Shown here: one piece after another, positions 14,269-44,745 of the stretch
Layout of the letters: every line of letters begins with the position of its first letter
Position numbering within the stretch: the stretch's first letter is position 1
Assembly (NCBI GenBank): GCA_009885805.1
Contig: VFJZ01000025.1
Location: 1 to 55,922 of the forward strand
Direction: 5' to 3'
From: Actinomycetota bacterium
GTDB lineage: Bacteria; Actinomycetota; Thermoleophilia; Gaiellales; F1-60-MAGs149
DNA: 55,922 bases
Made by a program: the position numbers and the translations under genes
Notes under the pieces: model-generated
Database searches by the model: none
The model's input: the letters and a program-made list of their open reading frames with translations, nothing else
What the model was told of the DNA's origin: nothing

Positions 14269-14293
14269 CGGACACGTGTTTTCGTGCTACACT
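14265..14293 (+). promoter_or_regulatory. Promoter of the toxin-antitoxin pair
   Basis: CTGACG (14265-14270), 17-base spacer, then TACACT (14288-14293), with GTG start 7 bases later. The -35 overlaps the stop of the gcvPB-like gene. This gives a leaderless mRNA beginning at or next to the antitoxin start codon. Confidence 0.6.
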
Positions 14294-14303
14294 TGTTTTC
14301 GTG
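14277..14303 (+). repeat. 10-base direct repeat, candidate antitoxin operator
   Basis: TGTTTTCGTG occurs at 14277-14286 and again at 14294-14303, 17 bases apart. The copies flank the -10 hexamer and the second overlaps the GTG start codon. RHH antitoxins commonly bind short repeated sites over their own promoter, so this is a plausible autoregulatory operator (inference). Confidence 0.55.
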
Positions 14304-14540
14304 GATCGGCGGAACATCACGCTAGCGATTCCGGTCGACCTGCTTCGCGATGCAAAGGTGATGGCGGCCGAGGAGCACACGTCCGTGTCCGCGCTGATGA
14401 TCGAGGCGCTGCGTAACGCCGTCGGCCGCCGGCAACGTTTCGTCGCCGCCCGCGAGCGCCAGCTCGCGCTGATGGGGACGCTCCCGCTCGGGTTCGGCGG
14501 ATCGGCGCGGGTGACGCGAGATGAGCTTCACGAGCGCTGA
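14301..14540 (+). CDS. Ribbon-helix-helix antitoxin-like protein
   Basis: 79 aa from GTG 14301. The N-terminus VDRRNITLAIPVDLLRDAKV has the RHH pattern: a short beta strand (NITLAIP), then helix A (DLLRDAKVMAAEEH) and helix B (SVSALMIEALRNAV). The C-terminal tail (after about residue 50) would contact the toxin. It overlaps the PIN gene by 20 bases, the usual antitoxin-first arrangement of VapBC-type modules. The frame extends far upstream through gcvPB, but the promoter and repeat structure fix the GTG start. It probably represses its own promoter. Confidence 0.8.
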   Translation: MDRRNITLAIPVDLLRDAKVMAAEEHTSVSALMIEALRNAVGRRQRFVAARERQLALMGTLPLGFGGSARVTRDELHER

Positions 14541-14970
14541 CGGCAGGGCGTTCTTCGATACGAACGTCCTCGTGTACGCGTACGACGCGCTGGCGGGCGG
14601 GAAGCGTGACCGGGCCCACGCGCTGGCGGCGGCGTTCTGGGACGGCCGCGGCACCCTCTCCTTGCAGGTCCTCCAGGAGCTCTACGTCACGCTGACGCAA
14701 AAGCTGCGATCGCCGCTCGAGCCGTCCGTCGCCTCCGGGATCGTTGGCGACCTCACGACCTGGATGGTCTACGCGCCGGCGAGCGCCGACGTCCTCGCGG
14801 CGATCTCGCTCCATCGCGAACACGGTCTATCGTTCTGGGATGCGATGATCGTCCACGCCGCGTTGCAGACGGGATGCGCCGTCCTGTACAGCGAGGATCT
14901 CCAGCACGGCCGCCGCTTCGGCGGTCTCGAAATCGTTAACCCGTTCGCCGATCGCCAGGAGCAGACGTGA
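14521..14970 (+). CDS. PIN-domain ribonuclease toxin (VapC-like)
   Basis: 149 aa. PIN-domain acidic residues are all visible: [12 protein letters not shown] (first Asp), [11 protein letters not shown] (Glu), [12 protein letters not shown] (Asp), LYSEDLQHG (Asp). These bind Mg/Mn in the RNase active site of VapC toxins. It starts at ATG 14521 inside the antitoxin gene. Its stop overlaps the GTG of the full-length glycine decarboxylase gene by four bases, which couples translation of gcvP to that of the toxin. That is unusual for a toxin-antitoxin pair, which normally forms a self-contained unit. Confidence 0.88.
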
Positions 14971-27939: not shown

Positions 27940-29280
27940 ATGAGCGAGATGCACGACGTGATCGTCGTCGGCGGCGGCATCGCCGGGCTCGCCGCGGCCT
28001 GGGACCTGCGCAACCGTGACCTGGTCGTCCTCGAGGCGGCCGATCGGCTCGGCGGGCGGATCCGCTCCGAGACGCGCGGCGAGCACTGGATCAACCTCGG
28101 CGCGCACGTGTTCGCCGGCGCCGGCTCGGCGTCCGACCGGCTCATCCGCGACACCGGCGTCGACGCCCTCCCGGTCCCGGGTCGCCTCACCTCGGTCGCG
28201 ATGAACGGCGCCTTCATCAACAGTGGTCGCGTCGAGACGGTGCCGTTCCGTGTGCCGATGCCGAGTGCCGACCGGCTCGCGCTACTGAAGACCGGCGCGC
28301 GGCTGCGGTTCGAGGTGGAGCGCCTCAAGCGCATCGAGCGACCCCGTCCCGGGGAGTCGCTCCGCCAGACCGAACTCCGCGTCATGGGTCACCTCGCCGA
28401 CCGCACGTTCGCGGACTGGACCGGCCCGCTGCCCGCCGACGCCGACGCCCTTCTCCGCGCCACGATCACACGGTCGACCGCCGAGTGCGAGCAGCTCACC
28501 GCCGGCCAAGGCGTCCACTTCTTCTCCCTCGTCTGGACGAAGGGCGGCGGCCTCTCGAACAACGTCCTCGGTGGCTCGCAGGTGCTCATCGACGCGATCG
28601 GTACGGAGCTCGGCGACGCCGTCCGGCTCGGCTGCGCCGTCGAGGAGGTCACGCAGCACGACGATCACGTCGTCGTCCGCCATACCGGCGGCGAGGTGCG
28701 CGCGCGGCACGTCATCATGGCGACGAAGGCGTACGAGACGCAGGCGCTCGTCACCGGCCTCGCACCCGACGTGATGGACGCGCTCGGCGCGATCCCCTAC
28801 GGCCCGCTGATCGTGATGGGGATCCTCACGGACGAGACCGCCGCGATGCCGTACGACGACCTGTACGCCCTCGCCACGCCGAAGCAGCCGTTCAACATGA
28901 TGTTCAACATGGCGAACGTCCTTCGCCGTCCGGGCGCGCCCCGCACGCCGGGCGGCAGCCTGTTCGTCTACCGCAACGGCGATCGCGGCGCCTGGCGCTA
29001 CCTGGAGATGTCCGACGACGAGGTGCGGGTGGAGTGGCTGACGGCCCTCGAAGGGCTCTTCCCGGCGCTCCGCGGGCACGTCGCCGAGACCGTGATCCTG
29101 CGGATGCCGCGCGGCCTGCCCTACCCGAAGCCGGGCTACGACGCCATCCTCGCGACCCTCGACCGGCCGCTCGGACGTCTCCACCTCGCCGGCGACTACC
29201 TCGGCGGCTCGTACACCGAGACCGCCGTTGCCTCTGGCCAGGCATCGGCGCTCGCCGTCCGCCGCGCGTTGCAGCCGTGA
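27940..29280 (+). CDS. Flavin-containing amine oxidase-like protein
   Basis: 446 aa. The N-terminal dinucleotide fold is clear: VIVVGGGIAGLAAAWDL followed by VLEAADRLGGRIRSE, the amine oxidase/phytoene desaturase/protoporphyrinogen oxidase pattern. The C-terminal FAD-closing motif is RLHLAGDYLGGSYTETAVASG. It probably oxidises an amine or a ring substrate with O2 or a quinone. The substrate is not indicated. The stop TGA (29278-29280) lies inside the first copy of a palindromic repeat, so the present C-terminus (LQP) was set by repeat insertion. An alternative start is the next ATG, 9 bases downstream. Confidence 0.87.
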   Translation: MSEMHDVIVVGGGIAGLAAAWDLRNRDLVVLEAADRLGGRIRSETRGEHWINLGAHVFAGAGSASDRLIRDTGVDALPVPGRLTSVAMNGAFINSGRVETVPFRVPMPSADRLALLKTGARLRFEVERLKRIERPRPGESLRQTELRVMGHLADRTFADWTGPLPADADALLRATITRSTAECEQLTAGQGVHFFSLVWTKGGGLSNNVLGGSQVLIDAIGTELGDAVRLGCAVEEVTQHDDHVVVRHTGGEVRARHVIMATKAYETQALVTGLAPDVMDALGAIPYGPLIVMGILTDETAAMPYDDLYALATPKQPFNMMFNMANVLRRPGAPRTPGGSLFVYRNGDRGAWRYLEMSDDEVRVEWLTALEGLFPALRGHVAETVILRMPRGLPYPKPGYDAILATLDRPLGRLHLAGDYLGGSYTETAVASGQASALAVRRALQP

Positions 29281-29342
29281 AAGAAAGGGATCAGATCCCG
29301 TTCTTTCACGTGAAAGAAAGGGATCAGATCCCGTTCTTTCAC
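29277..29342. repeat. Tandem pair of palindromic REP-like units between convergent genes
   Basis: Two identical 33-base units abut exactly (29277-29309, 29310-29342), each GTGAAAGAAAGGGATC-A-GATCCCGTTCTTTCAC, palindromic apart from one mismatch. The TGA in the first unit ends the amine oxidase gene on the plus strand. The TGA in the second unit, read on the minus strand, ends the LuxR gene. The pair resembles a BIME. It can fold into two hairpins or one long one and may terminate transcription from both sides. Confidence 0.9.
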
Positions 29343-30346
29343 GTGCTGAACGCCTCGAGCGGGACGATCAGGCCGTCGGCCACGGCGCGGGCAGCCGCTG
29401 CGGCGCGCGTCGGCACGCCGAGCTTGCCGAGTACCTGCTCGACGTAGGTGCCGACCGTGCGCGGCGAGATCCACAGGCGCGAGCCGATCTCAGCGTTCGA
29501 CCAGCCGGAGGTCAGCATCGTCAGGACTTCCAGTTCGCGGCGCGTCAGCTCGATCACGAGCGTCTCGGCGGCGATCGTGACCACCGCATCGCAGCCCTCG
29601 ATGCCGTCGGCCCGGCACGGGATCACGCTGATCCGGTGCCAACGTCGGTCGTCTGCGGGCCACAGGAAGCGCGTGTGGCGCCGACCGTCGCGCTCCGTGA
29701 GGCTGTGGGCGTGCCGCGGCAACTGCGCGCCCTCGGCCAGCAGCACATGCCCCGGGACGCCTGCGAGCCGAACCACGTCGCCTGCGCGCGACAACGCGAT
29801 CGCGAACGCACCGGGTTCGATCAGCGACAGCAGGAAGCGCGCGGACTGCGTTGGATCGACGACGTTGGCGAGCGTCGCGCCGAGCGCCTGGACCAGTTCC
29901 CGCTCCGTGTCGGAGGGATGGTCGGGATCGGCGGTGGAGAGGTTGAGCAAGCCGGTTTCGCGCCCGTCGGCCGTCCGCAGGCACATCGTCAGGCCCTCGC
30001 TGTAGCCGGCCGGCACGAGCCGCTCGGCGATCGTCCGGACGGCGAGCGCGTCGCCTGGAACGTCACGCATGCACACGGCCTGCCCCGTCAGGTGCATGTC
30101 CAGCGAACGGATCTCCTCGTCGAAGTCAGGCCCGTTGAGGTGATCGAGAAGGCTCTCGTCGTAGCCGTCGTTCGCCAGCAGTCGGCGTTGTCCGTCGAGC
30201 GGGTCGACGAACGAGAGCGCCGCGTGATCGAAGGGAACAACCTCGCGCAACGCGGCCAGCACGGCGACCGCGCGCTCACGCGGCGCGAGCGGCTCACTCG
30301 CGGCGCGCGCCACGCGGGCGATCCCATCGAGAGCCGCGACCGCCAC
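29339..30346 (-). CDS. LuxR-family regulator with GAF-like sensor domain
   Basis: About 335 aa from GTG 30346. A TTG at 30382 would add 12 residues but lies within a dyad. The N-terminal 130 residues resemble a GAF/PAS-type sensor (VPFDHAALSFVDPLDGQRRLL), a middle region carries a PAS-like segment, and the C-terminal 60 residues are a LuxR HTH: LTRRELEVLTMLTSGWSNAEIGSRLWISPRTV as successive short motifs. The last residues before the stop come from the palindromic repeat. It is divergent from the ABC transporter/amidase operon and is the obvious candidate regulator. The ligand is unknown. Confidence 0.85.
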   Translation of the reverse strand: MAVAALDGIARVARAASEPLAPRERAVAVLAALREVVPFDHAALSFVDPLDGQRRLLANDGYDESLLDHLNGPDFDEEIRSLDMHLTGQAVCMRDVPGDALAVRTIAERLVPAGYSEGLTMCLRTADGRETGLLNLSTADPDHPSDTERELVQALGATLANVVDPTQSARFLLSLIEPGAFAIALSRAGDVVRLAGVPGHVLLAEGAQLPRHAHSLTERDGRRHTRFLWPADDRRWHRISVIPCRADGIEGCDAVVTIAAETLVIELTRRELEVLTMLTSGWSNAEIGSRLWISPRTVGTYVEQVLGKLGVPTRAAAAARAVADGLIVPLEAFST

Positions 30347-30374
30347 GACGGGGAGTATGATCGCTCCTGGTCCC

Positions 30375-30441
30375 TCCGTCAATCGACGGATTGCTTAACG
30401 ATGCAGCCTCTGGCATGCTCGGGCCCGACGGCTCTGCCGTC
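30375..30441. promoter_or_regulatory. Two dyads in the LuxR/ABC divergent intergenic region
   Basis: TCCGTC-AATC-GACGGA (30375-30390) is a perfect 16-base dyad. GACGGC-TCT-GCCGTC (30427-30441) is a second hairpin-forming dyad. Both lie between the divergent LuxR regulator and the binding-protein gene and share the CCGTC/GACGG half-site, so they may be operator sites. No convincing -35/-10 pair was found. The rest of 30347-30498 has only the strong ribosome binding site GGAGGAGGAGG before ATG 30499. Confidence 0.45.
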
Positions 30442-30498: not shown

Positions 30499-31845
30499 AT
30501 GCGGGATCCCGCAAAGCGGCACCGACGTCTCGTCTGGCTGCTCGCGATCTTCGTGGTCGCGCTCGTAGTTGCAGCCTGCGGCGGCGACGACGAAGCCGAT
30601 GCGCCGGCGACCAGTGCGGCTCCGGCCGACACCGGCGCGGCGCCAGCGACCGACACCGCAGTTGCAGCGCCGACCGGCGAGCCGATCGTGATCGGCGGTC
30701 CGTTCGCGCAGACCGGCCCCGCCGGCATCGCCGACCACAAGGACTGCTGGAACGGCAGCCAGATGGCGATCGACGAGATCAACGCGGCCGGTGGCGTCAA
30801 CGGCCGCCCGCTCGCGCTCGAGGTCACCGATATCGACATGCTGACACCGGAGGGTGTGCAGACGTCGTTCCAGACGCTCGCCGACAAGAAGGTCGATGCG
30901 ATCGTCTCGCCCTTCGTGATCACGTACCAGCCCGCGCTGGATGTGGCCGCGGCGGCCAGTATTCCGTACCTCTCCGGCGGCACCTCGTCGCCGACCGTCG
31001 CCGTCGTGCAGGGCGATCAGGAGAAGTACTGGAACTTCGTGCAGGACCCGTCCGAGGCGTACTACGGCAACGGCTTCATCAAGTCGCTGAACACGCTGCA
31101 GGAGTCCGGTGTCTGGACGCCCAAGAACAACAAGGTCGACATCGTCACGGGCGACACCGAGTACAACCAGCTGATCGGCAAGGGCGCGCTCGAGGAGATC
31201 ACGGCCCAGGGTGGTAAGTGGGTGCTCGGTCTCGAGGAGGCAGTCCAGGGCGGGCAGCTCGCCGACTGGTCTCCGATCATCCAGAAGCTGAAGGCTTCGG
31301 ATGCCGGCGTCATCATGATCAACCACTGGATCGGCGCCGAACTGGCGGGCTTCGCCCAGCAGTACGCCGCTGACCCGGTGCCGGGCGCCCTCGTGTACCT
31401 GCAGTACGGCCCGTCGCAGCCGGAGTTCCTCGACATCGCCGGCGAGTCGGCGGAGGGCTTCTACTGGGGAACCGTCATCGGCGTCCCGAACACGGGCGTC
31501 GCCGCCGAGTTCCGCACCAAGTACTCGGCGCTGTACCCGGGCACGTTCGGCATCGTCTACACCGGCTGGTGCTACGACATGGTGCAGATGCTGAAGAACG
31601 CGTGGATGGTCACCGACCCGGCCGACACCAGGGCCGTCGTCGCGCACGTGAAGGCGAACCCGCACGACGGCACGACCGGTCACATCGACTTCTCGAACGT
31701 CGAGGCGCCGGTCTACCCGGACAACGTCGACGACCCGGCCAAGGGCGTCACGCATCTCTTCTTCCAGGTGCAGGACGGCAAGCACACGATCGTGCTGCCG
31801 GACGTGTACAAGGAAGCGGACTATCGCACGCCCCCGTGGGGCTGA
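30499..31845 (+). CDS. ABC transporter substrate-binding lipoprotein (branched-chain/amide type)
   Basis: 448 aa, extracytoplasmic lipoprotein. The signal is a basic stretch then a hydrophobic core ending in the lipobox LVVAAC, Cys27 being the lipidated residue, followed by an Ala/Pro/Thr-rich linker to about residue 52. The rest is a type I periplasmic binding fold (Peripla_BP_6): VIGGPFAQTGPAGIA, DEINAAGGVNGRPL and the later YTGWCYDMVQML. This family captures branched-chain amino acids, urea and short amides. It is the first gene of the 13-gene operon, with a perfect ribosome binding site, and its stop lies inside the next gene. Confidence 0.93.
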   Translation: MRDPAKRHRRLVWLLAIFVVALVVAACGGDDEADAPATSAAPADTGAAPATDTAVAAPTGEPIVIGGPFAQTGPAGIADHKDCWNGSQMAIDEINAAGGVNGRPLALEVTDIDMLTPEGVQTSFQTLADKKVDAIVSPFVITYQPALDVAAAASIPYLSGGTSSPTVAVVQGDQEKYWNFVQDPSEAYYGNGFIKSLNTLQESGVWTPKNNKVDIVTGDTEYNQLIGKGALEEITAQGGKWVLGLEEAVQGGQLADWSPIIQKLKASDAGVIMINHWIGAELAGFAQQYAADPVPGALVYLQYGPSQPEFLDIAGESAEGFYWGTVIGVPNTGVAAEFRTKYSALYPGTFGIVYTGWCYDMVQMLKNAWMVTDPADTRAVVAHVKANPHDGTTGHIDFSNVEAPVYPDNVDDPAKGVTHLFFQVQDGKHTIVLPDVYKEADYRTPPWG

Positions 31846-32612
31846 TCGAACCCACGCTGAATGACCCGGCGCCGGTGCGGGAGAGCGTCTTCTCCTGCAC
31901 CGGCGTCAGCCTGCAGCTCGTCGGCAGGCAGATTCTCGACGACGTCTCGCTGTCCGTCCGGCCCGGTGAGGTCCTCGGCCTCGCCGGGCCGAACGGCGCG
32001 GGTAAGACGAGCCTGTTCGAGGTGCTGACCGGGCGCTATCGCGCCCAGGCCGGCCGGGTCGTCCTCGCCGGCCGGGACATCACCTCCGATCCACCGTTCG
32101 CGCGTGCCCGGGCGGGTCTCGGACGTACGTACCAGCGGCCGGTCGTACCGAGCCTGCTCAGCGTCCGCGACACGCTCGAGGTGGCGCGCACGGCCTACCG
32201 GCCGTACCCCTCGACCCACCAGATGGAGTGGGCGCGAGCGCTCGTGCGCATGCGCGCCCCGATCACGGCGCCGGCTGCCGGCCTGGAGACCCTCGAGCGC
32301 CGCAAGCTGATGCTCGCGTCGATGCTCGCGCGGCGGCCGAAGGTGCTCCTCCTCGACGAGCCGGCCTCGGGGCTGACCGGTGCCGAGATCGACGAGATCG
32401 ACGTCATCGTCCGCGCCGCGAGCCAGGAGCACGGCATCGCGGTCATCATCGTCGAGCACCGGCTCGAACTGCTCGCGTTGGTCGCCTCGCGCGTGATCGT
32501 GCTCGATCTCGGCAAGATCATCGCGGAAGGCCCGCCGGAAACGGTCTTCGACGAGCCTCAGGTGCAGGCCGCGTACTTCGAGACGGCCGCCGAGGCGGCG
32601 GCGACAGGATGA
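31836..32612 (+). CDS. ABC transporter ATP-binding protein (LivG-like)
   Basis: 258 aa from GTG 31836, overlapping the previous stop by 10 bases. Walker A is GPNGAGKTS and Walker B is VLLLDEPASGL, with VEHRLELL as H-loop. The signature helix is poor: instead of an LSGGQ- or LPYGDQR-like loop it reads GLETLERRKLMLA. It pairs with the LivF-like ATPase encoded next, which has a normal LSGGE. One composite ATP site would therefore be degenerate, a situation known in several asymmetric ABC transporters. Forms the cytoplasmic motor of the importer. Confidence 0.93.
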   Translation: MGLIEPTLNDPAPVRESVFSCTGVSLQLVGRQILDDVSLSVRPGEVLGLAGPNGAGKTSLFEVLTGRYRAQAGRVVLAGRDITSDPPFARARAGLGRTYQRPVVPSLLSVRDTLEVARTAYRPYPSTHQMEWARALVRMRAPITAPAAGLETLERRKLMLASMLARRPKVLLLDEPASGLTGAEIDEIDVIVRAASQEHGIAVIIVEHRLELLALVASRVIVLDLGKIIAEGPPETVFDEPQVQAAYFETAAEAAATG

Positions 32613-32659: not shown

Positions 32660-32696
32660 ATGCCGTGCGATGCTGCTCCGAAGGAGCGCACGGCAT
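32660..32696 (+). promoter_or_regulatory. Hairpin sequestering the livF ribosome binding site and start codon
   Basis: ATGCCGTGC (32660-32668) pairs with GCACGGCAT (32688-32696) and GCTCC (32675-32679) pairs with GGAGC (32683-32687), leaving a 6-base bulge on the left arm and a GAA loop. The Shine-Dalgarno AAGGAG (32681-32686) is in the stem or loop, and the first two bases of the ATG (32695-32697) are paired. This should restrict initiation unless opened, e.g. by translating ribosomes. Confidence 0.6.
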
Positions 32697-33426
32697 GAGC
32701 CTTCTTGAGATCAAGGGCCTGTCGGCCGGCTACGGGCCGCTCCGCGTGCTGCACGATCTCGACCTCACGATCGAGCGGGGCGAGCGTGTCGGCCTCGTCG
32801 GCCTGAACGGGCACGGCAAGTCCACGCTGCTGCAGGCGATCGTCGGTCTGACGGGGTGGCAGTCGGGTTCGATCCTCCTCGACGGCGTCGAGATCGGCGG
32901 CACCCGCATGCACGGCTCCGGCCGCGCGACGCCGAAGATCGTCCGCCGCGGCGTCGCGCTCGCCCCGCAGGGCGACGCGATCTTCCCCGGCCTGACCGTG
33001 CAGCAGAACCTCGATTCCGGGGCGTTCACCGCCCGCGCGTGGCGCGAGCGACGCCGCCGGCGTGAGCGCGTCCTCGAGATCTTCCCGGCTCTCGGTCAGT
33101 TGCTCGGCCAGAGCGTCGGCACGCTGTCGGGCGGCGAGCGCCGGATGGTGTCGCTCGGGCGGGCGTTCATGGGCGACCCGCGCGTCTTCCTCGTCGACGA
33201 ACCGTCGCTCGGCCTCGCCCCGAAGATCTCCCGCAGCGTCGTCGAGGCGCTCGGGCGGATCGATATCGGCGACGGCGCGATGATCATCGCCGAGCAGGAC
33301 CTCGGGCTGATCCAGGGTCGCGTCGATCGCACCCTCGGCATGCACGCCGGTGAACTGAAGCAGGACATCGGCGACGCCCTGCTCGTCGGCCACGCCCAGA
33401 CGCATCCCCACGGCACGCAGGGCTAG
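32695..33426 (+). CDS. ABC transporter ATP-binding protein (LivF-like)
   Basis: 243 aa. Walker A GLNGHGKST, Q-loop region VALAPQGDAIFPGLTV, signature VGTLSGGERRMVSL and Walker B VFLVDEPSLGLAP followed by IIAEQD are all standard for LivF. ATG 32695 is chosen because of AAGGAG eight bases upstream and the family-typical start MSLLEIKGLSAGYG. The frame extends further upstream without homology. It forms the heterodimeric motor with the LivG-like protein. Initiation may be controlled by the hairpin at 32660-32696. Confidence 0.94.
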   Translation: MSLLEIKGLSAGYGPLRVLHDLDLTIERGERVGLVGLNGHGKSTLLQAIVGLTGWQSGSILLDGVEIGGTRMHGSGRATPKIVRRGVALAPQGDAIFPGLTVQQNLDSGAFTARAWRERRRRRERVLEIFPALGQLLGQSVGTLSGGERRMVSLGRAFMGDPRVFLVDEPSLGLAPKISRSVVEALGRIDIGDGAMIIAEQDLGLIQGRVDRTLGMHAGELKQDIGDALLVGHAQTHPHGTQG

Positions 33427-33436
33427 GGGAGGACCG

Positions 33437-34351
33437 TTGGACTGGTTCGTCGTCACCTCCGCCCTCGCCCTCGCCGCGATGTACGGGCTCCTCGGCATCG
33501 GCATCTCGCTGACGTGGTCGAGCATCGGCATGCTCAACCTCGCCCACGGCTTCACGTTCGCCGCCGCCGGCTACGGCGCCTGGTGGGCGTCGAAGAACCT
33601 GATGTCGGCGCCGACGTCGGGAACCGACGCGCTCATCGTCGCCCTCGCCGGCATTCTCACCGGTGTCGTCGGCGGGCTCGTGGTCGGACTCGTCGCCTTC
33701 TTACCACTCCACGACCGGCCGAACTTCCCGATTCGATCGCTGATCGCGACGCTCGCGATCTCGCTTGCGGGCACCCAGATCTTCCTCCTCACGTTCGGGC
33801 CCCTGAACAAGCCGCTGCCGAAGATCTTCGACCCGGTCGGTAAAGCCCTCGACATGCGCAAGTTCGAGATCGGGCCGATCGAGATGACCTGGGATCGCGC
33901 CGGCTCGATCGTCGCCGCGACGCTGTTGTGTGTCCTCGTGCTCGTCTGGGTGCGGATGTCCCGTCGCGGCATCCAGATGCGGGCGATGATGCAGAACCCG
34001 GAGGGCGCCGCCCTCGTCGGCGTCTCGGTGCGCTCGACCGGGATGATGGTGATGGGGATCTGCGGTGGCATGGCCGGCCTCGCGGCCGTCCTTCTGTCGT
34101 CGACCTTCTTCGTCAATCCGGCCGCCGGCGTCCAACCGCTCGCGAAGGGGCTCGTGATCGCGCTCCTCGGCGGCCTCGGATCGGTGCCCGGCGCCGTGAT
34201 CGCGGCGATCCTCGTGGGCTTCACCGAGGCGCTGACGGCGAAGTACTTCGGCACCACGACGACGCTCTTCGCCCAGTACGTCCTCGTGTTCCTGGTGCTC
34301 GCGGTCCGCCCCCGCGGCATCGGCGGTCTGCTCGACGAGGTGCGCGCATGA
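33437..34351 (+). CDS. ABC transporter permease (LivH-like)
   Basis: 304 aa from TTG 33437 with GGGAGGA about 5 bases upstream. About eight membrane helices. Family blocks are LLGIGISLTWSSIGMLNLAHG in the first helices and, near the C-terminus, GLVIALLGGLGSVPGAVIAAI, the EAA-like coupling loop of branched-chain permeases. Forms the transmembrane channel with the LivM-like protein. The final codons overlap the next gene's ATG (ATGA), so the two permeases are translationally coupled. Confidence 0.92.
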   Translation: MDWFVVTSALALAAMYGLLGIGISLTWSSIGMLNLAHGFTFAAAGYGAWWASKNLMSAPTSGTDALIVALAGILTGVVGGLVVGLVAFLPLHDRPNFPIRSLIATLAISLAGTQIFLLTFGPLNKPLPKIFDPVGKALDMRKFEIGPIEMTWDRAGSIVAATLLCVLVLVWVRMSRRGIQMRAMMQNPEGAALVGVSVRSTGMMVMGICGGMAGLAAVLLSSTFFVNPAAGVQPLAKGLVIALLGGLGSVPGAVIAAILVGFTEALTAKYFGTTTTLFAQYVLVFLVLAVRPRGIGGLLDEVRA

Positions 34352-35895
34352 GCTCCGCCGAGCAGGTCGCGCGCGAGCGCGAGCGGCAGGCGCTGGTCGG
34401 CCGCCGTCGCCTGCTGCCGCGAGTGCCGGCGCGCGCGGACCGCACACTGCACCGGCGCCGCTGGCCGCTGTCGAAGACGACCGTCTTGCACCTCGGCGGC
34501 CGCTACAACCCGAAGACCCTCGGGCGCGAGCGGCTGATCACGGAGAAGGCGCCGCTGTGGTGGTTCACGTTCCTCTCGCTCGCCCTTGTCGTGCCGCTCC
34601 TCGCCGGTACCGACAAGATGCTGACGATCGCCTCCACGTTCGCGATCTACGCCTCGATCAACCTGATGTGGATGCTGGTGATGGGGACGGCCGGCATCTT
34701 CTCGCTCGCCAGCCTCGCCATCACCGGCATCGGCGCCTACGCCACCTGCTGGCTGACGATCAACGCCGACCTGCCGTGGCCGCTGATGTTCCCGGTCGGC
34801 GCGGTCGTCGGTCTCTTCGTCGGCGTGATCATCGCGATCCCGGCGAGACGCATGGATGGCATGTACTACGCGCTCCTCACGCTCGGCATCGCCGAGGTGT
34901 GCCGCGCCTACGCCCTGCAGGCGAAGTGGATCGGCGCACAGTCCCAGGGTTCACTGTCGGGCGGCGGCGGGTTCATCCCCGAGGACATCCGCTTCACCCA
35001 GACCGGGCAGCGGATCGGGTACGCCGCGGCGTTCGTGCTCCTGCTCGCCGCGCTCGCCGTCTACCGCGCCGTGAACGGTCAGCGCCTCGGGCTGCTCCTG
35101 CGCGCGTCGCAGAAGGAGGACGAGGCCGTCTCGGAGTCGATGGGGATCGACTTCCAGCGTGCACGGCTCGCCGTGTTCCTGATCTCCTCGGCCGGGCTGG
35201 GCGTGATCGGCGCCTTCTACGCCGGCTACTTCCGCGCCGCGTCCCTCTCGCTGTTCGGCGTCGACCTGTTGCTGCTGCTCTTTGCGATGATCGTGATCGG
35301 TGGCCTCGGACGCGCCGAGGGCGCCGTGATCGGCACCTTGCTCGTGACTATCGTCGATCGCTACTTCGTCGACTTCGGCGCGAAGCGCTTCCTCTTCATC
35401 GGGCTCCTGATGCTCGCCTCCGTGCTCTTCACCCGCGGCGGTGCGTTCGGCCTGCGCGATCAGTGGCGCGAGCTACGCGCTCGCCGCCGCAGTCAGAGGC
35501 GGGCGGCGCGGACGTCGCGGCACGGCGCGGTCTCGCCCGAGGAGGCGCCGGAGATCGCGGACAAGGCGCAGATCTACCAGCGGCGCTTCGACCACAACCA
35601 GCGTGCGCATCTGAAGTCGCTGATCACGGACGACCTGATCGCCGAGCATCGGCGCAACCCGACCGGCCTGCACTCGGAGGAGCTCGAGCGCGTGATGCTG
35701 TACTTCCGCAAGGCAGAGCTGGCCGGCAAGTACTGCGTGTACGCGGTGAAGCCGTTCGCGAAGTACCGCATCGTCGCGCTCTCCGGCCTACCCGGCGTTC
35801 CACCGCGCGTGGTCGACGACCGCGTGTACCCGACGGTCGACGAGGCCTACCACGCCGTCTTCCTTCGTCGCGTCAACGATCTCCGCTCGTCCTAG
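34348..35895 (+). CDS. LivM-like ABC permease fused to a DMFase small-subunit domain
   Basis: 515 aa, well above the 300-350 aa usual for LivM. Residues about 1-65 are a basic cytoplasmic extension, and about 70-375 are the permease (AGIFSLASLAITGIGAYA, RRMDGMYYALLTLGIAE, VIGGLGRAEGAVIGTLL). After a basic linker, residues about 400-512 match, from memory of that family, the N,N-dimethylformamidase alpha subunit (about 132 aa). Landmarks in order are IAEHRRNPTG, ERVMLYFRKAELAGKY, YRIVALSGLPG and EAYHAVFLRRVNDLRSS. No ATG, GTG or TTG codon occurs between the last helix and the core of this domain, so it is not separately translated. The matching large subunit starts 11 bases downstream. I infer that the hydrolase is docked on the importer's cytoplasmic face. 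Confidence 0.88.
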   Translation: MSSAEQVARERERQALVGRRRLLPRVPARADRTLHRRRWPLSKTTVLHLGGRYNPKTLGRERLITEKAPLWWFTFLSLALVVPLLAGTDKMLTIASTFAIYASINLMWMLVMGTAGIFSLASLAITGIGAYATCWLTINADLPWPLMFPVGAVVGLFVGVIIAIPARRMDGMYYALLTLGIAEVCRAYALQAKWIGAQSQGSLSGGGGFIPEDIRFTQTGQRIGYAAAFVLLLAALAVYRAVNGQRLGLLLRASQKEDEAVSESMGIDFQRARLAVFLISSAGLGVIGAFYAGYFRAASLSLFGVDLLLLLFAMIVIGGLGRAEGAVIGTLLVTIVDRYFVDFGAKRFLFIGLLMLASVLFTRGGAFGLRDQWRELRARRRSQRRAARTSRHGAVSPEEAPEIADKAQIYQRRFDHNQRAHLKSLITDDLIAEHRRNPTGLHSEELERVMLYFRKAELAGKYCVYAVKPFAKYRIVALSGLPGVPPRVVDDRVYPTVDEAYHAVFLRRVNDLRSS

Positions 35896-38213: not shown

Positions 38214-38557
38214 ATCGCGCGACGTTCGACCACGTCTGCCTGATCACCGACGTCGAGCAGCCGGGCGAGAGTTGGGTCGAGGCGACGCGCGTGTGGGTGA
38301 CGAGTCCCCGCGCGCACGCCTGCAACGTCGAGTACCTGCGCTTCTCGCCGGACAGCCCGGTCGCGGGGCCGATCCGGGAGCAGCCGCACATCGCCTACCG
38401 CGTGCTCGACCTCGCTGCGGCGATCGAGGGGCACGAGGTCATCCTGGGGCCGTTCGGCGTCGGCGACGGCTTTCTCGAGGTGGCGTTCCTGCTCGTCGAC
38501 GGCGTCGTCGTCGAGTTCATGCAGTACCGGGATCCCGACGAGAAGGGGTGGTTCTGA
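38204..38557 (+). CDS. VOC (glyoxalase/dioxygenase-fold) family protein
   Basis: 117 aa from GTG 38204, overlapping the amidohydrolase stop by 10 bases, with GAGGAGGAGAAG just upstream. A single VOC unit with beta-alpha-beta-beta-beta halves: DHVCLITDVEQPG at the start (His9-type metal position) and FLEVAFLLVDGVVVEFMQYRDP at the end, seen as separate blocks, with the terminal Glu (VEFMQ) as the usual metal ligand. It could isomerise, cleave or bind an intermediate released by the hydrolase. No specific subfamily is recognisable. Confidence 0.82.
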   Translation: MALDRATFDHVCLITDVEQPGESWVEATRVWVTSPRAHACNVEYLRFSPDSPVAGPIREQPHIAYRVLDLAAAIEGHEVILGPFGVGDGFLEVAFLLVDGVVVEFMQYRDPDEKGWF

Positions 38558-39348
38558 TGCAGGTCGGCGGGCACTCGAACACGTACCACACGCGCACCGG
38601 CGAGGAGGCGTGGGCCGGCATCGCAGCGGCGGGCTACATCACCGTCGAACTGTCGGCCGTGCTCGGCTGGTCGGAGCACGTCGATCTCGACGCGCCCGTC
38701 GCCGACCTCTATGCACGCCTCGCCCACTACGGGCTGACGCCGACGGTGCTGTCCGGCCACTCCGACCTGACGACCCCCGACGGGGTCGACCTCGCGATCA
38801 AGGCGATCCGCTGGTGTCATGACAACGAGATCGGCGTCATGAACTCGGCGATCGGCGGCCATTCGTCGCAGGAGGAGTCCGAGTCTGCCTTCCTCGCCGG
38901 CATCGGCCGCGTCGCCGCCGCGGCCGACGACGCCGGGGTCGACGTCGCTCTGGAGATCCACGGCGACATCATGGCGACCGGCGCGCGGACGCTGCCGCTG
39001 CTCGAGCGGATCGGCCATCCACGCATCCTCGTCGCCTACGACACCGCCAACTGCGAGTTCTACGGGGACACCGCCGCAGTCGACGACCTGGCGACGATGG
39101 TGCCCTACCTCGCCAACGTCCACCTGAAGGACAAGCGCGGCGGCGCAGGCGTCTGGGACTTCCCGGAACCCGGCGGCGGCCACGTCGACTTCACTGCCAT
39201 ACGCAAGATCCTCGTCGACGGCGGCTACGACGGGCCCGCCTCGGTGGAGATCGAGTTCGACGGTACGTGGCCCGATCTCGCCGGCATCGACGCGGTGATG
39301 AAGAGCGGTCGCGACCACCTCGTCGCCTGCGGCTACGACTGCGGCTGA
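38557..39348 (+). CDS. Sugar phosphate isomerase/epimerase-like TIM barrel
   Basis: 263 aa. The AP-endonuclease-2/xylose-isomerase-like fold is indicated by GYITVELSAVLGW, then VALEIHGDI (Glu), AYDTANCEFYGD (Asp, Asn), VHLKDKRGG (His) and the closing SVEIEFDGTW (Glu). These are metal-binding positions used in ketose epimerases and inosose dehydratases. ATG 38557 shares one base with the previous stop. The gene is next to a Gfo/Idh/MocA dehydrogenase, a combination typical of inositol, keto-sugar and aminosugar catabolism. This hints that the amide substrate contains a polyol or sugar part (inference). Confidence 0.88.
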   Translation: MQVGGHSNTYHTRTGEEAWAGIAAAGYITVELSAVLGWSEHVDLDAPVADLYARLAHYGLTPTVLSGHSDLTTPDGVDLAIKAIRWCHDNEIGVMNSAIGGHSSQEESESAFLAGIGRVAAAADDAGVDVALEIHGDIMATGARTLPLLERIGHPRILVAYDTANCEFYGDTAAVDDLATMVPYLANVHLKDKRGGAGVWDFPEPGGGHVDFTAIRKILVDGGYDGPASVEIEFDGTWPDLAGIDAVMKSGRDHLVACGYDCG

Positions 39349-39349
39349 C

Positions 39350-40372
39350 ATGATCGGCGTGGCGATCGTCGGCGCGGGCTTCATGGGGAAGACCCACGCC
39401 GCTGCCTGGCGCGCCCTCGGCGATCGCGTCCGCGTCGAGGTCGTCGCCTCGCGGACAGCCGCTCGTGCCGCCGAGGTGGCGGAGGCTGCGGGTTCGGGTG
39501 ACGTCATGACGGATCTCGCCGCGGCCGTTCGCGACCCCAGGGTCTCGCTGGTGGACATCTGTCTGCCGACGCCGCTTCACCGCCAGGTCGCCGAGGCGGC
39601 GTTCGCCGCCGAGAAGGACGTCCTCGTCGAGAAGCCGCTGGCGCTGACTCGCGAGGACGCCGAGGCGATCGTCGACGCGGCTGACCGGGCCGATCGCACC
39701 CTCCTGGTTGGGCTCGTGCTGCGTCACTGGCCCGAGTACCTGCGGCTGCACGAGCTTGCCGCGGAGGGGGCGATCGGCACGGTGCGCTCAGTCTCTGCGC
39801 TGCGCCTGTCGCCGCCGGCCGACTGGGCGGACTGGTTCATCGACCCGGCGCAGTCCGGCGGCGCCGCAGTCGACCTGATGGTGCACGACTTCGACCAGCT
39901 GAACGCGCTGCTCGGCGCGCCGAGGACCGTGCACGCGCAGTGCGTCCGGCGCGGCCCGCACGGGGCGCCGCAGCACGTCCTCGCCGTCACCTCCCACGAA
40001 CACGGCGTCGGTCTGGCCGAGGGCGGCCTGATGCTGCCGGGGTCGTACCCGTTCAGCTCGGGGATCCGTGTGCTCGGTGACGGTGGCGTGCTCGAGTATC
40101 CGTTCGCCGCAGGTCCTGCGGTCGGCGGTGGCAACATCGGCGGCGTCGACCAGGACGCGAACCGGTTGCGGCTGCACCCGGGGGAGGGCGATGCGCGCCT
40201 GATCGAAGTGGAGAGCGCCGATCCGTGGCACCGGCAGGCCGCGTACCTCGTGGACTGTCTCGAGGCCGGGCGCGCGCCCGAACGGGGGACGGGTGCCCAG
40301 GCGCTCGCCGCTCTGCGCGTCTCGTTGGGCGCGAACCGCTCGTTGGAAACCGGAAACGTCGAGGAGGTCTGA
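39350..40372 (+). CDS. Gfo/Idh/MocA-family NAD(P)-dependent oxidoreductase
   Basis: 340 aa. The N-terminal Rossmann domain starts VAIVGAGFMGKTHAAAW, followed by the family catalytic motif VLVEKPLALT (the EKP lysine). The C-terminal alpha/beta substrate domain has GGAAVDLMVHDFDQLNALLG, where the Asp/His pair is the usual active-site element. It oxidises or reduces a sugar, inositol or similar hydroxyl. It lies two bases after the isomerase gene and is followed by the deacetylase gene with a GAGGAGG site, so it belongs to the same operon. Confidence 0.92.
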   Translation: MIGVAIVGAGFMGKTHAAAWRALGDRVRVEVVASRTAARAAEVAEAAGSGDVMTDLAAAVRDPRVSLVDICLPTPLHRQVAEAAFAAEKDVLVEKPLALTREDAEAIVDAADRADRTLLVGLVLRHWPEYLRLHELAAEGAIGTVRSVSALRLSPPADWADWFIDPAQSGGAAVDLMVHDFDQLNALLGAPRTVHAQCVRRGPHGAPQHVLAVTSHEHGVGLAEGGLMLPGSYPFSSGIRVLGDGGVLEYPFAAGPAVGGGNIGGVDQDANRLRLHPGEGDARLIEVESADPWHRQAAYLVDCLEAGRAPERGTGAQALAALRVSLGANRSLETGNVEEV

Positions 40373-40374
40373 GC

Positions 40375-41484
40375 ATGGCTACGGGATTCGTCTGCGACGA
40401 GCGCTACTTCTGGTGGGACACCCGCTCGGCGGGCCTGTTCATGCCGTCGCACCCCGCGATCGGCGTCGAACCCGACGCGCACGCCGAGGGCCCGGCGACC
40501 AAGCGCCGCTTCCGGAACCTGCTCGAGTTGTCGGGGATGCTGAAGCAACTGACACCGGTCGAGCCGCGGGAGGCGACGGTCGCCGAGGTCGCGCGCTGCC
40601 ACTCGATGGAGCACATCGAGCGGATGAAGGCGCTGAGCGACGACAACGGTGGCGACGCCGGTGAGCTGACGCCGTTCGCGCCGGGCGGCTACGAGATCGC
40701 GCTGCTCGCTGCCGGCGGCGTGATCGCGGCGGTCGACGCGGTCGTCGCCGGCACGGTGCGGAACGCCTACGCCCTCGTGCGGCCGCCCGGCCACCACGCC
40801 GAGCGCGATCGCGGTCGCGGCTTCTGCATGTTCGCGAACTGCACGATCGCCGCCCGCCACGCGCAGGCGGCGCATGGCCTGAAGCGGGTGGCGGTCGTCG
40901 ACTGGGACGTCCATCACGGCAACGGCACGCAGTGGCTGACGTACGACGACCCGTCGGTCCTCGCGATCTCGCTCCACCAGTACGAGAACTTCCCGCCCGA
41001 CTCGGGGTACGTCACCGAAAATGGCGAGGGCGCGGGGAAGGGTGCGAACGTCAACGTCCCGCTACCCGCGGGCTCCGGCGTCGGCGCCTACACGGCGGCG
41101 TTCGAACGGGTCGTGATCCCGGCGCTGCGTCGCTTCCGGCCGGAACTCATCATCGTCGCGTCCGGGCTCGACGCCTCGGCCTACGACCCGCTCGCCCGGA
41201 TGATGATGCACTCGGACGGGTTCCGGGACATCTGTGCGCAGATCCTCGCCGTCGCGGACGAGGTCTGCGACGGGCGCGTCGTCGTCGCCCACGAGGGCGG
41301 GTACTCGCAGGTCTACGTCGCCTTCTGCGGTCTTGCCGTGGTCGAGACCATGGCGGGCGTGCGGACGATCGACGACCCGTACCTGGCGATGGCGGCGGGC
41401 CTCGGCGGCCAGGACCTTCAGCCACACCAGGACGCGATGATCGCCGAGGCGGAGGCGCTCGTCGCGAACGTCCCGGCTCCGTGA
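40375..41484 (+). CDS. HDAC-like / acetylpolyamine-type deacetylase
   Basis: 369 aa, class II histone-deacetylase fold. Catalytic His140-His141 are in VRPPGHHAE. Zinc ligands are Asp178 and His180 (VVDWDVHHGNGT) and Asp266 (ASGLDAS). The transition-state Tyr is in HEGGYSQVY. Bacterial members remove acetyl groups from polyamines or other N-acetyl compounds. The N-terminus (CDERYFWWDT) is typical of the bacterial class II group. ATG 40375 with GAGGAGG eight bases upstream. Together with the DMFase and M20 genes this makes three different amide-hydrolysing activities in one operon. Confidence 0.9.
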   Translation: MATGFVCDERYFWWDTRSAGLFMPSHPAIGVEPDAHAEGPATKRRFRNLLELSGMLKQLTPVEPREATVAEVARCHSMEHIERMKALSDDNGGDAGELTPFAPGGYEIALLAAGGVIAAVDAVVAGTVRNAYALVRPPGHHAERDRGRGFCMFANCTIAARHAQAAHGLKRVAVVDWDVHHGNGTQWLTYDDPSVLAISLHQYENFPPDSGYVTENGEGAGKGANVNVPLPAGSGVGAYTAAFERVVIPALRRFRPELIIVASGLDASAYDPLARMMMHSDGFRDICAQILAVADEVCDGRVVVAHEGGYSQVYVAFCGLAVVETMAGVRTIDDPYLAMAAGLGGQDLQPHQDAMIAEAEALVANVPAP

Positions 41485-42785
41485 CCGCCACCGTCCTCGC
41501 CGCCGCCGCCGGCCGGCGCGAGGAACTCGTCGACCTCGTCCGCGACCTCGTCGGCCATCGCTCGGAGAATGCGAAGCTCGTCCCGGCCGCCGCCGTCACG
41601 GCGGCGGCCACGGGCGAGTCGGCCTGCCAGGACGCGATCGAGCAGGCGTTCGCGGACCTCGGCATGACGATCGATCGCTTCGAGGCGCTCCCGGGCCGCG
41701 AGGACGTCGTCGGCCGGCTCGCGGGGTCCGGCGGCGGTCGCTCCCTGATCCTGAACGGCCACGTCGACGTCGTTCCCGCCGGCGCGCCCGAGGAGTGGCC
41801 GCACGATCCGTGGGGTGGCCACCTCGACGGCGAGGGTCGCCTCTGGGGCCGCGGCTCGTGCGATATGAAGGGCGGGATCGCCTGCGGCATCGTCGCGTTG
41901 CGCATCCTCCGCGATCTCGGTGTCCGGCTCCGTGGCGACGTCGTCTTCCAGTCGGTCGTCGACGAGGAGACGGGCGGCCCGGGGACGGTGCGGGCGATCG
42001 AGCGCGGGCACGTCGCCGACGCCGCGATCATCCTCGAGCCGACGAACGGGCACCTGCAGCCGGTCGAAGGCGGGCTCGAGTGGGTTCGCGTCGTCATCCG
42101 CGGCCGCACGGGCCACAGTGCGGCCCGATACCGGTCGATCCACGCCGGTGGCCGGGGCGCGCCGGTGTCGGCGATCGAGAAGGCCGTCGACGTCCTGCAC
42201 CGGCTCCGGGAGCTCGAACGTCACTGGGGCGTGCACCGCGTCCATCCCCTGCTGCCGCGCGGCATCACGACGCTGAACCCCGGCGTCATCGCGGGCGGCT
42301 CGGGCGGCGGCGCCGACGGCATGCCGAACGGAATGGTCGCGTACTCGAACTTTGCGGACTACTGCGCGCTCGGTCTGTCGATGAAGTACCTCCCCGACGA
42401 GTCACCCGACGAGGTGCGGGCGATGTTCGAGGACGAGCTTGCGCGGATCGCCGCCGCCGATCCGTGGCTGCGCGAGCATCCGCCCGAGGTCGAGTGGGGG
42501 ATCGCCGGCGTCTCGTTCCCGCCCGCGGAGACGCCGCCCGACCACCGGTTCTGCCAGACCGTCGCGGGCGCGTTTCGGCGCGCGACCGGTCGCGCGGAGA
42601 CGTTCTCCGGCTTCGAGGCGGTGTCCGACCTCGCCTGGCTCTCGGCGGCGGGGATCCCGAGCCTGCTCTACGGCCCCGGCGACTTCGCGCAGGCGCATTC
42701 GAGCGCCGAGTACGTGTGCGTTGACGAACTCGTCGAGGTGACCGGTGTCGTCGCGCTCGCGGTGATGGACTGGTGCGGATGCTGA
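41481..42785 (+). CDS. M20-family amidohydrolase/deacylase (ArgE/DapE-like)
   Basis: 434 aa from GTG 41481, overlapping the previous stop (GTGA). Di-zinc peptidase family: LNGHVDVVP (His94, Asp96), RGSCDMKGG (bridging Asp), VVDEETGGPG (catalytic Glu pair) and ILEPTNGHL. The dimerisation lid lies between about residues 200 and 330 (GRTGHSAARY). C-terminal GDFAQAHSSAEYVCVDELVE carries the last zinc His. Likely removes an acyl group from an amino acid or hydrolyses an amide. The substrate is probably the pathway intermediate. Confidence 0.92.
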   Translation: MTATVLAAAAGRREELVDLVRDLVGHRSENAKLVPAAAVTAAATGESACQDAIEQAFADLGMTIDRFEALPGREDVVGRLAGSGGGRSLILNGHVDVVPAGAPEEWPHDPWGGHLDGEGRLWGRGSCDMKGGIACGIVALRILRDLGVRLRGDVVFQSVVDEETGGPGTVRAIERGHVADAAIILEPTNGHLQPVEGGLEWVRVVIRGRTGHSAARYRSIHAGGRGAPVSAIEKAVDVLHRLRELERHWGVHRVHPLLPRGITTLNPGVIAGGSGGGADGMPNGMVAYSNFADYCALGLSMKYLPDESPDEVRAMFEDELARIAAADPWLREHPPEVEWGIAGVSFPPAETPPDHRFCQTVAGAFRRATGRAETFSGFEAVSDLAWLSAAGIPSLLYGPGDFAQAHSSAEYVCVDELVEVTGVVALAVMDWCGC

Positions 42786-43963
42786 CGTCGTTCTACTGCT
42801 TCGCGTCCGATCTGGAGGATCGCGGCACCGACGTCGCCCTCGACGAGATGCAGGCCGCCGGCGCGACGGGCGTGACGCTGGCGTCCGCGTATCACGCCGC
42901 GCGCGATCTGTTCCCCCGCGCCCGCGGGCGGCGGGTGCGGTTCCTGCGCGGCGGCGAGGTGCACTTCCGTCCCGACCCGGCGCTGTGGGCCGGCGCCGTG
43001 CTCACGCCGCTCGGCGGCGAGGCCGAGACGCTCGGCGACCTCGTCGCCGCAGCCGGCCGGCGCGATATGCACGTCGACGGCTGGACGGTGTTCCTCCATG
43101 TCGACCGCGAGCTCGACCTGCCCGCCGGCCTTGCGGAGGAGACCTGTTTCGGCGACCCGCTGCCGACCCAGCTCTGTCCGGCCAGTCCCGATGTGCGCAC
43201 GTACGCGGTGACGTTGGCGCGCGAGGTCGCGCGCCGCGGCGTGCGCGCGGTCGTCGCCGAGTCGCTCCACCATCACGGGTTCGGGCACGGCTACCACCAC
43301 GAGCGGGCGTTCGTCCGCCTCGGCCCGCTCGCCCGGGCGGTCCTCGACCTCTGCTTCTGCCGGCATTGCGCGGACGACGACGAGCGGGCAGTGGCGCGCG
43401 CGATCGTCGCGGAGGCGTTCGCGGCGGACAGCGACACCGGGCCGGAGTGCACCTGGGCCACGGTCGACGCGGTCTTGCCCGGCTTCCGGGCCCGCCGGGA
43501 GGCGCAGGTCGCGTTGCTTGTCGGCGAGGTCGCCGCCGCCTGCCGGGCGGAGGGGGCGGAGCTTGTCTTCCTCGACCCATCCGGGGCGGCGAAGGGCTAC
43601 GCGACCGGCCGCCCTGAGGGCGGCGCGGCACCCGAGATCGCCTGGACGATGGGCGTCGACGTCGCCGGCTGTGCGCAGGCGGCCGGAGCGCTCGGCGTGA
43701 TCGCGTACGCCGCCGACCCCGCGCGCGTCGCGCTGGATCTCGACGCATACCGGGCGCTCGCCGGTCCGGACGTCGCCCTGGAGGCCGTCCTGCGACCGTC
43801 GGCGCCCGACTGCGAGGACGCCGGCAATCTCGCGGCGAAGCTCGCGGTGTGTGCCGAGCGCGGCGTGCGCGCCGCGGGTCTCTACCATTACGGGCTCGTG
43901 CCGGTGGCGGCGATGGAGCGGGCAGCGGCCGCGCTCGGCGGTGTCGCGGGGGGTGGACGGTGA
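42773..43963 (+). CDS. Conserved protein of unknown function, probable TIM-barrel
   Basis: 396 aa (an ATG at 42779 is an alternative start). I cannot name the family. The sequence alternates hydrophobic strands and helices (VTLASAYH, GWTVFLHV, VRAVVAESLHHHGFGHGYHHE, AAGLYHYGLVP), suggestive of a glycoside-hydrolase-like barrel. It contains a compact cysteine motif LDLCFCRHCADD near residue 200 that could bind metal or form a disulfide. It overlaps the M20 gene by 13 bases and the SDR gene by four, so it is firmly inside the operon. It may act on a glycosidic or polyol part of the substrate (speculation). Confidence 0.75.
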   Translation: MRMLTSFYCFASDLEDRGTDVALDEMQAAGATGVTLASAYHAARDLFPRARGRRVRFLRGGEVHFRPDPALWAGAVLTPLGGEAETLGDLVAAAGRRDMHVDGWTVFLHVDRELDLPAGLAEETCFGDPLPTQLCPASPDVRTYAVTLAREVARRGVRAVVAESLHHHGFGHGYHHERAFVRLGPLARAVLDLCFCRHCADDDERAVARAIVAEAFAADSDTGPECTWATVDAVLPGFRARREAQVALLVGEVAAACRAEGAELVFLDPSGAAKGYATGRPEGGAAPEIAWTMGVDVAGCAQAAGALGVIAYAADPARVALDLDAYRALAGPDVALEAVLRPSAPDCEDAGNLAAKLAVCAERGVRAAGLYHYGLVPVAAMERAAAALGGVAGGGR

Positions 43964-44745
43964 CCGGCGGGCTGCTCGCGGGGAAGTCGGCGTTCGTGAC
44001 CGGCGCCGGCGGCGGCATCGGTGCGGCCGTCGCGCGGCGCTTCTGCGAGGAGGGCGCGCGTGTGGCGCTCGCCGACGCGGACGCCACCGCCGTCGAAGCG
44101 GTTGCTGCCAACCTTGCAGGTGCCGGCTTCGACGCGGCCGCCGTCGCGCTCGACATCACCGACGAGGCAGCCGTCGGGCGCGTGATGGACGCGGCCGCCG
44201 AGCGGCTCGGGCGCCTCGACACGCTCGTCGCGAACGCCGGGATCCTCCACGTCGGCCGGATCGCAGAGACGACTGCCGAGGCGCTCCGCCGGACGGTCGA
44301 CGTCAACCTCGTCGGCACGATCTCGTGCATCCGCGCGGCGCTGCCGCACCTGCGCCGGGACGGCGGCGGGTCGATCGTCTGCACGGTGTCGCAGGCCGGC
44401 ATCGAAGGCGCTCCGGAGCTCACCGCCTACTGCTCGTCGAAGTTCGCGGTCACGGGCGCCGTCCAGTCGCTCGCGCGTGAGCTCGGCCCCGAGGGAATCC
44501 GGGTGAACGGCGTCGCGCCCGGCCTGGTCGAAACGCCGATGCTCGCACGATTCTTCGCCGACCGCGCCCGGGTTCGCGGGCTGTCGACCGAGGAGGTGCG
44601 CGAGCGCGCGCTCGCCGGCGTCCCGATCGGCCGGGTCGCGTCACCGGTCGAGATCGCGAACGTGATCGTCTTCCTCGCCTCGGGCCTCGCCTCGTACGTG
44701 AGCGGCGTCGTCCTGCCGGTGCTCGGCGGCGAGATCAGCCGCTGA
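43960..44745 (+). CDS. Short-chain dehydrogenase/reductase
   Basis: 261 aa from GTG 43960 (GTGA overlap with the previous stop). Classical SDR: cofactor motif TGAGGGIG, NAG motif LVANAGILH, catalytic Tyr and Lys in AYCSSKFAV, and GPEGIRVNGVAPGLVETPM. The acidic residue after beta-2 (LADAD) favours NAD. It is the last gene of the packed operon. A small hairpin (44748-44765) follows, then the helicase-associated gene. Probably oxidises an alcohol intermediate. Confidence 0.92.
   Translation: MTGGLLAGKSAFVTGAGGGIGAAVARRFCEEGARVALADADATAVEAVAANLAGAGFDAAAVALDITDEAAVGRVMDAAAERLGRLDTLVANAGILHVGRIAETTAEALRRTVDVNLVGTISCIRAALPHLRRDGGGSIVCTVSQAGIEGAPELTAYCSSKFAVTGAVQSLARELGPEGIRVNGVAPGLVETPMLARFFADRARVRGLSTEEVRERALAGVPIGRVASPVEIANVIVFLASGLASYVSGVVLPVLGGEISR

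Follow-up and report, generated by a model that had tools for sequence, protein, structure and literature searches.

Can the channel protein of an ABC importer also be a subunit of the enzyme that hydrolyzes its cargo? The window, by which we mean the whole 55,922-nucleotide stretch of DNA analyzed here, raises this question because a preliminary description took one of its genes to encode a LivM-like permease that ends in the small (alpha) subunit of N,N-dimethylformamidase (DMFase), with the large (beta) subunit encoded by the next gene. The window holds a full HAAT importer set (PF02653 twice, PF00005 twice, and PF13458), and the gene in question, LivM::alpha, supplies one of its permeases (Table 1).

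Table 1. Features of the window that bear on the LivM::alpha fusion
Feature	Coordinates	Strand	Evidence
Divergent GAF + LuxR-type regulator	29339..30382	-	
Substrate-binding lipoprotein, LivK/UrtA kind	30499..31845	+	PF13458 E 8.5e-32 (query from 30508)
LivG-type ATPase (putative start)	31881..32612	+	PF00005, PF12399
LivF-type ATPase	32695..33426	+	PF00005; UrtE/LivF models below cut-off
LivH-type permease	33437..34351	+	PF02653 E 2.3e-33
LivM::alpha (515 aa): LivM-type ABC permease with a DMFase small subunit as its C-terminal domain	34348..35895	+	
Permease part, residues 1-362, ~10 predicted helices, BtuC/HmuU-like fold	34348..35433	+	PF02653, AlphaFold2, foldseek
Basic linker (residues 363-404), for the most part a single predicted helix (368-392)	35434..35559	+	
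DMFase small-subunit (alpha) domain, residues 405-515	35560..35892	+	phmmer 6lvb_B, foldseek 6lvb_B/6lvv_B
DMFase-type large (beta) subunit, 768 aa	35907..38213	+	6lvb_A, iron-site residues
HDAC-like amidohydrolase, downstream, same-strand gene run	40375..41484	+	PF00850 E 1.9e-87

The 515-residue frame is open over 34348-35892, with its stop at 35893-35895, and its ATG and the stop codon of the LivH-like frame overlap (GCGCATGAGC). Residues 91-357 match PF02653 (BPD_transp_2, E 3.9e-28). The NCBIfam equivalogs for LivM and UrtC score 62 versus 366 and 57 versus 576 bits, short of the curated scores; by sequence, the permease is of the same superfamily as LivM and UrtC but is not one of those transporters. 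A single-chain AlphaFold2 model of the full-length protein (45 natural fusions) has a mean pLDDT of 82.5, mostly 70-98 from residue 70 on. When this model was searched with foldseek, DMFase small subunits ranked first and BtuC-type permeases (HmuU, BtuC) next.

The identity of the C-terminal domain is supported by sequence and by fold. In a PDB-wide phmmer search, residues 405-514 align to residues 17-129 of the DMFase small subunit 6lvb_B (E 1.6e-11). The foldseek E value against DMFase small subunits is 9e-6 for the full-length model and 2.5e-8 for the alpha domain alone, for which the next, non-DMFase matches have E > 0.5. Modeled by itself (single chain, mean pLDDT 89.9), the domain has the small-subunit fold, with long N- and C-terminal helices and short strands, and matches 6lvv_B with a TM of 0.80 and an rmsd of 1.7; TM values to 6lvb_B/6lvv_B range over 0.78-0.82. 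The membership in the DMFase small-subunit family that had been proposed from the sequence is thus confirmed. No Pfam or NCBIfam model matches the alpha domain, and automatic annotation therefore misses it; on the annotated plasmids, the fusion goes under the name "branched-chain amino acid ABC transporter permease". The domain retains the conserved positions of free alphas that adjoin beta, and in nearly all relatives the alpha part is better conserved than the permease part (e.g., 65 vs 49% and 63 vs 50%), which argues against a decaying tail.

The partner subunit is where the preliminary description had placed it. Beta is homologous to the DMFase large subunit 6lvb_A over its full length (E 2e-197) and keeps the 2-Tyr-1-Glu iron site and the essential His. 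The Fe ligands Y399, Y440, and E521 of the Paracoccus enzyme correspond to Y394, Y434, and E516, H519 to H514, N547 to N542, and the pocket-narrowing F693 to F689; the Paracoccus residues are numbered and assigned as in PMC7686228. The same paper describes the large subunit as inactive by itself and the substrate cavity as lying between the large and small subunits.

The most mundane reading of such a gene is that an assembly or sequencing error joined two neighbors, and the window does come from a draft genome (3.56 Mb, 101 contigs, 95% complete). A one-base error is an unlikely source from the frames: correction in one direction leaves the permease without a stop across the whole domain, and in the other requires a 150-bp gene overlap. 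The same fusion at 55 other loci, complete plasmids and isolate genomes among them, rules out such an error, and we give this reading essentially no credence. The preliminary description had also allowed for a better-matching alpha gene elsewhere; neither BLAST nor a profile found a second alpha in this genome, although one could have escaped notice in an assembly that is 95% complete.

The fusion is real, and dozens of bacteria in two phyla have kept it. Searches of relatives in the window's class and phylum returned free alphas only and no fusion, and a genome contig scan with the query P0001 gave no match. An alignment of large subunits, scanned against 84,980 species genomes, yielded 80 loci, of which 51 have LivM::alpha as one frame directly upstream of beta; since the 80 are the nearest relatives of the window's beta, this is not a family-wide rate. 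Most of the 51, and the 4 plasmid loci with the fusion, share the order SBP-LivG-LivF-LivH-LivM::alpha-beta. The hosts are Actinomycetota MAGs and alpha-, beta-, and gammaproteobacteria, and include rhizobia, rhodobacters, methylotrophs (Methylorubrum, Methylocella, Hyphomicrobium, Methylopila), and burkholderiales. Among 385 alphaproteobacterial genomes, alpha was found in 34, and among the best matches checked it was fused only in G783 and the center genome G771. A plasmid search found 26 conjugative plasmids (Agrobacterium, Rhizobium, Aminobacter, Ensifer) that match most of P0001, with the operon present in all four loci examined (L096-L099). Three apparent fusions (G575 [L011], L102, and L112) were rejected, as alpha there lies in a frame held open through high GC and no permease is encoded; a weak match in G089 (L004) looked like chance, as the coding frames there read as unrelated genes. 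A fused system on a contig labeled as a Klebsiella pneumoniae MAG (L036) groups with gammaproteobacteria, and that bin is probably mislabeled or contaminated.

In a tree of 93 large subunits (a quick tree with SH-aLRT support, without bootstrap), all fused systems, that of the window among them, fall in one clade of 64 with an SH-aLRT of 100; Paracoccus DMFase lies outside, and within the actinobacterial group the window branches off first. As the simplest account of this single clade, the fusion probably arose once and was followed by a few fissions. A few free-alpha members occur inside the clade (L055, L067, L071, and L058, plus second copies in L062 and L068), and the free alphas of the fission lineages start at about the junction position. 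The first four of these do without a tether, which suggests that the enzyme can probably work without being anchored. Outside the fused clade, a free alpha-beta pair lies beside an unfused, distant LivK-G-F-H-M operon (L089, 8554-16137), so an enzyme of this kind is linked to a LivKGFHM-type transporter there too. The second beta of L097 belongs to the fused clade and has no alpha of its own; on this plasmid, pMDW2, two tandem large-subunit genes with one shared fused alpha are followed by a propionyl-CoA synthetase and a type II haloacid dehalogenase (11514-16257). A link to methomyl through the pMDW2 host was considered and dropped, as nothing connects the operon to that compound. Short proteins that match mainly the C-terminal half of alpha (profile ~49-122) were seen at L027 (30-686, minus strand) and in G769, G773, G775, G780, and G781; by sequence, they are apparently a divergent alpha type, present in several genomes that carry the fusion as well.

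The junction itself is the next source of evidence. Window residues 362-410 form a 49-residue segment without an indel in 56 of 56 fusions, while several other permease regions differ in length. Such a fixed length suggests a set spatial relation of alpha to the membrane, not a loose tether. The linker is strongly basic (mean K+R of 10.3, with 13.5 in the N-tail), and ten predicted helices flanked by a basic N-tail and linker would place both ends of the protein, including the alpha domain, in the cytoplasm. Residues ~380-405 are modeled with lower confidence (pLDDT near 62), as might be expected if a protease cut the fused protein after synthesis and freed alpha; we consider this very improbable, as the linker length is conserved and we know of no precedent for proteolytic release in the family. 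The same fixed-length basic helix, conserved straight after the last membrane helix, could instead belong to a gate or sensor, with the binding of beta to alpha, or substrate at the alpha-beta interface, switching the importer so that uptake proceeds only when the enzyme is present. C-terminal regulatory domains occur in other ABC importers such as MetNI and ModBC, and a single alpha on each transporter is not enough to provide much enzyme. Against such a switch, the positions conserved among free alphas are retained in the domain, and the searches of the window's genome turned up no other alpha, so that the domain probably must at least complete the enzyme; we judge regulation as its main role to be rather improbable.

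Whether alpha is made only as part of the permease depends on the lineage. The window has no in-frame ATG, GTG, or TTG between codon 359 (the last helix) and codon 420, so its alpha is in frame with LivM and is not a separate polypeptide; an AGGAGG stretch (~35541-35546) lies ahead of an ATC codon and could possibly form a very weak, non-canonical start. Most actinobacterial fusions likewise have no start codon at 395/396, and the two with TTG have no clear Shine-Dalgarno sequence. Most of the actinobacterial genomes with a fusion that were searched yielded no further alpha. The proteobacterial fusions differ, with an in-frame ATG or GTG at residue 395 or 396 in 42 of 45, behind a AAAGGAGG-like Shine-Dalgarno-like stretch; a sequence like GAGAAAGGAGGCGAG precedes this start. 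The mean anti-Shine-Dalgarno energy is -10.3 at the junction, whereas the remaining ATGs in these genes average -1.9. All three proteobacterial fusions that lack the start (L044, L062, and L098) have a separate alpha gene, vs 1 of the 42 with the start (Fisher p 2.8e-4, although L044 and L098 are sisters, which leaves about two independent events). At L044 (8549-8995) and L098 (11227-11841), this is a second, divergent free alpha that lies between beta and the fused permease without the internal start. Free alpha is thus probably also made from the junction start in Proteobacteria, and two regimes seem to exist, one with the fused form only and one with the fused form and an internally started alpha. 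The claim that alpha can only be made within the permease therefore stands for the window and most of its actinobacterial relatives and fails for the family as a whole.

These starts also invite the reading that the fusion is mainly an expression device, fixing the ratio of transporter to alpha while the working enzyme is soluble and contains free alpha from an internal start or a separate gene, so that anchoring is incidental. The high frequency of the junction start and the separate alpha genes of the start-less fusions are what this reading would predict. Yet the Shine-Dalgarno signal is mostly dictated by the peptide KGGE, to which synonymous codons add a modest bias beyond the expectation from codon usage (combined p 5e-5, with relatives that are not independent). 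A ratio-setting device would moreover not need a length-fixed linker, and it fits poorly with the window and most actinobacterial fusions, where the start is missing and another alpha was mostly not found. Overall, we regard it as unlikely, though as a reading that deserves some weight.

The reading that we favor, with a confidence slightly above even, is a docked uptake-and-hydrolysis unit in which a cytoplasmic iron amidase sits on its own importer. The substrate-binding lipoprotein would hand a small amide to the LivH/LivM::alpha channel, import would be driven by LivG/LivF, and the permease C-terminus would keep alpha on the cytoplasmic side at a fixed distance from the membrane. Beta, translated next, would bind the fused alpha and be active only then, because the DMFase large subunit alone is inactive. 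Hydrolysis would begin at the cytoplasmic face of the importer and pull uptake forward; in Proteobacteria, the junction start would add soluble alpha and give both anchored and free enzyme. From the conserved co-location we infer that enzyme substrate and importer cargo are the same. Beta would assemble on the fused alpha, transport and catalysis would be coupled, and substrate hand-over at the channel exit is plausible. With no other alpha found, the window's enzyme is apparently completed only on the transporter, and as each transporter carries one alpha, an alpha2-beta2 enzyme would bridge two of them. A stronger form, in which the channel protein is an obligate subunit of a cargo-destroying amidase that is active only on the membrane and bridges two transporters, and in which a second start sets the proteobacterial ratio of anchored to soluble enzyme, is put forward tentatively, at somewhat less than an even chance. 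We note that co-location is no proof of channeling, that small amides move quickly by diffusion and may pass through membranes unaided, and that the internal starts suggest a possibly large soluble share of the enzyme in Proteobacteria.

Since the beta clade is separate from Paracoccus DMFase, the substrate is not transferable by homology. The retained pocket Phe, the methylotroph hosts, and the HDAC-like amidohydrolase nearby in Actinomycetota make a small N-substituted amide, which need not be DMF, a fair guess. The PDB relatives of that amidohydrolase include propanil and dimethoate hydrolases, and it adjoins beta in 7 actinobacterial relatives. The closest solved structure to the substrate-binding lipoprotein, 3h5l (E 2.3e-49), is annotated just as a putative branched-chain amino acid ABC transporter protein; it is too distant, and its annotation too provisional, to identify the substrate.

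In its large-subunit homology with all Fe ligands, its alpha fold and sequence, the position of alpha directly upstream of beta, and a LuxR-type regulator nearby, the window resembles Paracoccus DMFase (DmfA1/DmfA2, 6lvb). It differs in that its alpha is a permease tail and its beta belongs to a distinct clade; no transporter is described for the Paracoccus enzyme, whose subunits, in the account of the operon in PMC4543880, are separate genes of one operon under a LuxR-family activator, DmfR. The window's importer shares with LivFGHMK and UrtABCDE an SBP, two ATPases, and two permeases of the usual families but has a 150-residue cytoplasmic extension on LivM that ends in an enzyme subunit. In peptidase-containing ABC transporters (PCAT), which are exporters, a complete protease domain acts on the cargo. 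They likewise join an ABC transporter polypeptide to an enzymatic function on cargo (in the window, the inferred substrate), whereas in the window an importer carries one subunit, non-catalytic yet required, of an enzyme built from two chains. N-acetyl-(R)-beta-phenylalanine acylase (8huy) has a homologous large-subunit chain and metal-site residues, but its PDB entry has that chain alone and a Leu at the pocket Phe; we know of no transporter fusion of an 8huy-type acylase.

The fusion is apparently undescribed. In the open-access literature searched, no case of a LivM::alpha-type fusion came up, in line with the preliminary description, and no paper treated dimethylformamidase together with an ABC transporter. 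Transport metabolons, in which uptake is coupled to catabolism, are usually argued from weak, transient contacts. Here, a single polypeptide is channel and enzyme subunit and has persisted in two phyla, its linker fixed in length, so that the import of a compound may be physically coupled to its breakdown. As one clade offers natural controls (free-alpha, fused-only, and fused plus internal start), the benefit of docking an enzyme at the transporter exit is directly testable. Genes annotated only as branched-chain amino acid permeases also gain a concrete likely role in amide degradation.

Several observations concern the surroundings of the operon. Same-strand genes with tiny gaps or overlaps occupy 38557-44745 and encode a TIM-barrel isomerase, a Gfo/Idh-type oxidoreductase, the HDAC-like amidohydrolase, an M20 deacylase (ArgE/DapE-like), a 396-residue protein (42773-43963) with no Pfam match, and an SDR; together with beta, this makes three amide hydrolases in one gene run. 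Clustering of the loci by their neighbors gained little, as overlapping reading frames dominated. The GAF + LuxR-type regulator is also found upstream in 7 actinobacterial fused operons, and a Pseudonocardia free alpha-beta pair (L079, 11268, minus strand) adjoins a regulator 55% identical to that of the window. Between an oxidoreductase gene that ends at 29280 and the convergent regulator gene, a 33-bp imperfect palindrome occurs twice in tandem (29277-29342, gtgaaagaaagggatcagatcccgttctttcac); the pair may be a terminator for both directions or a small repeat element.
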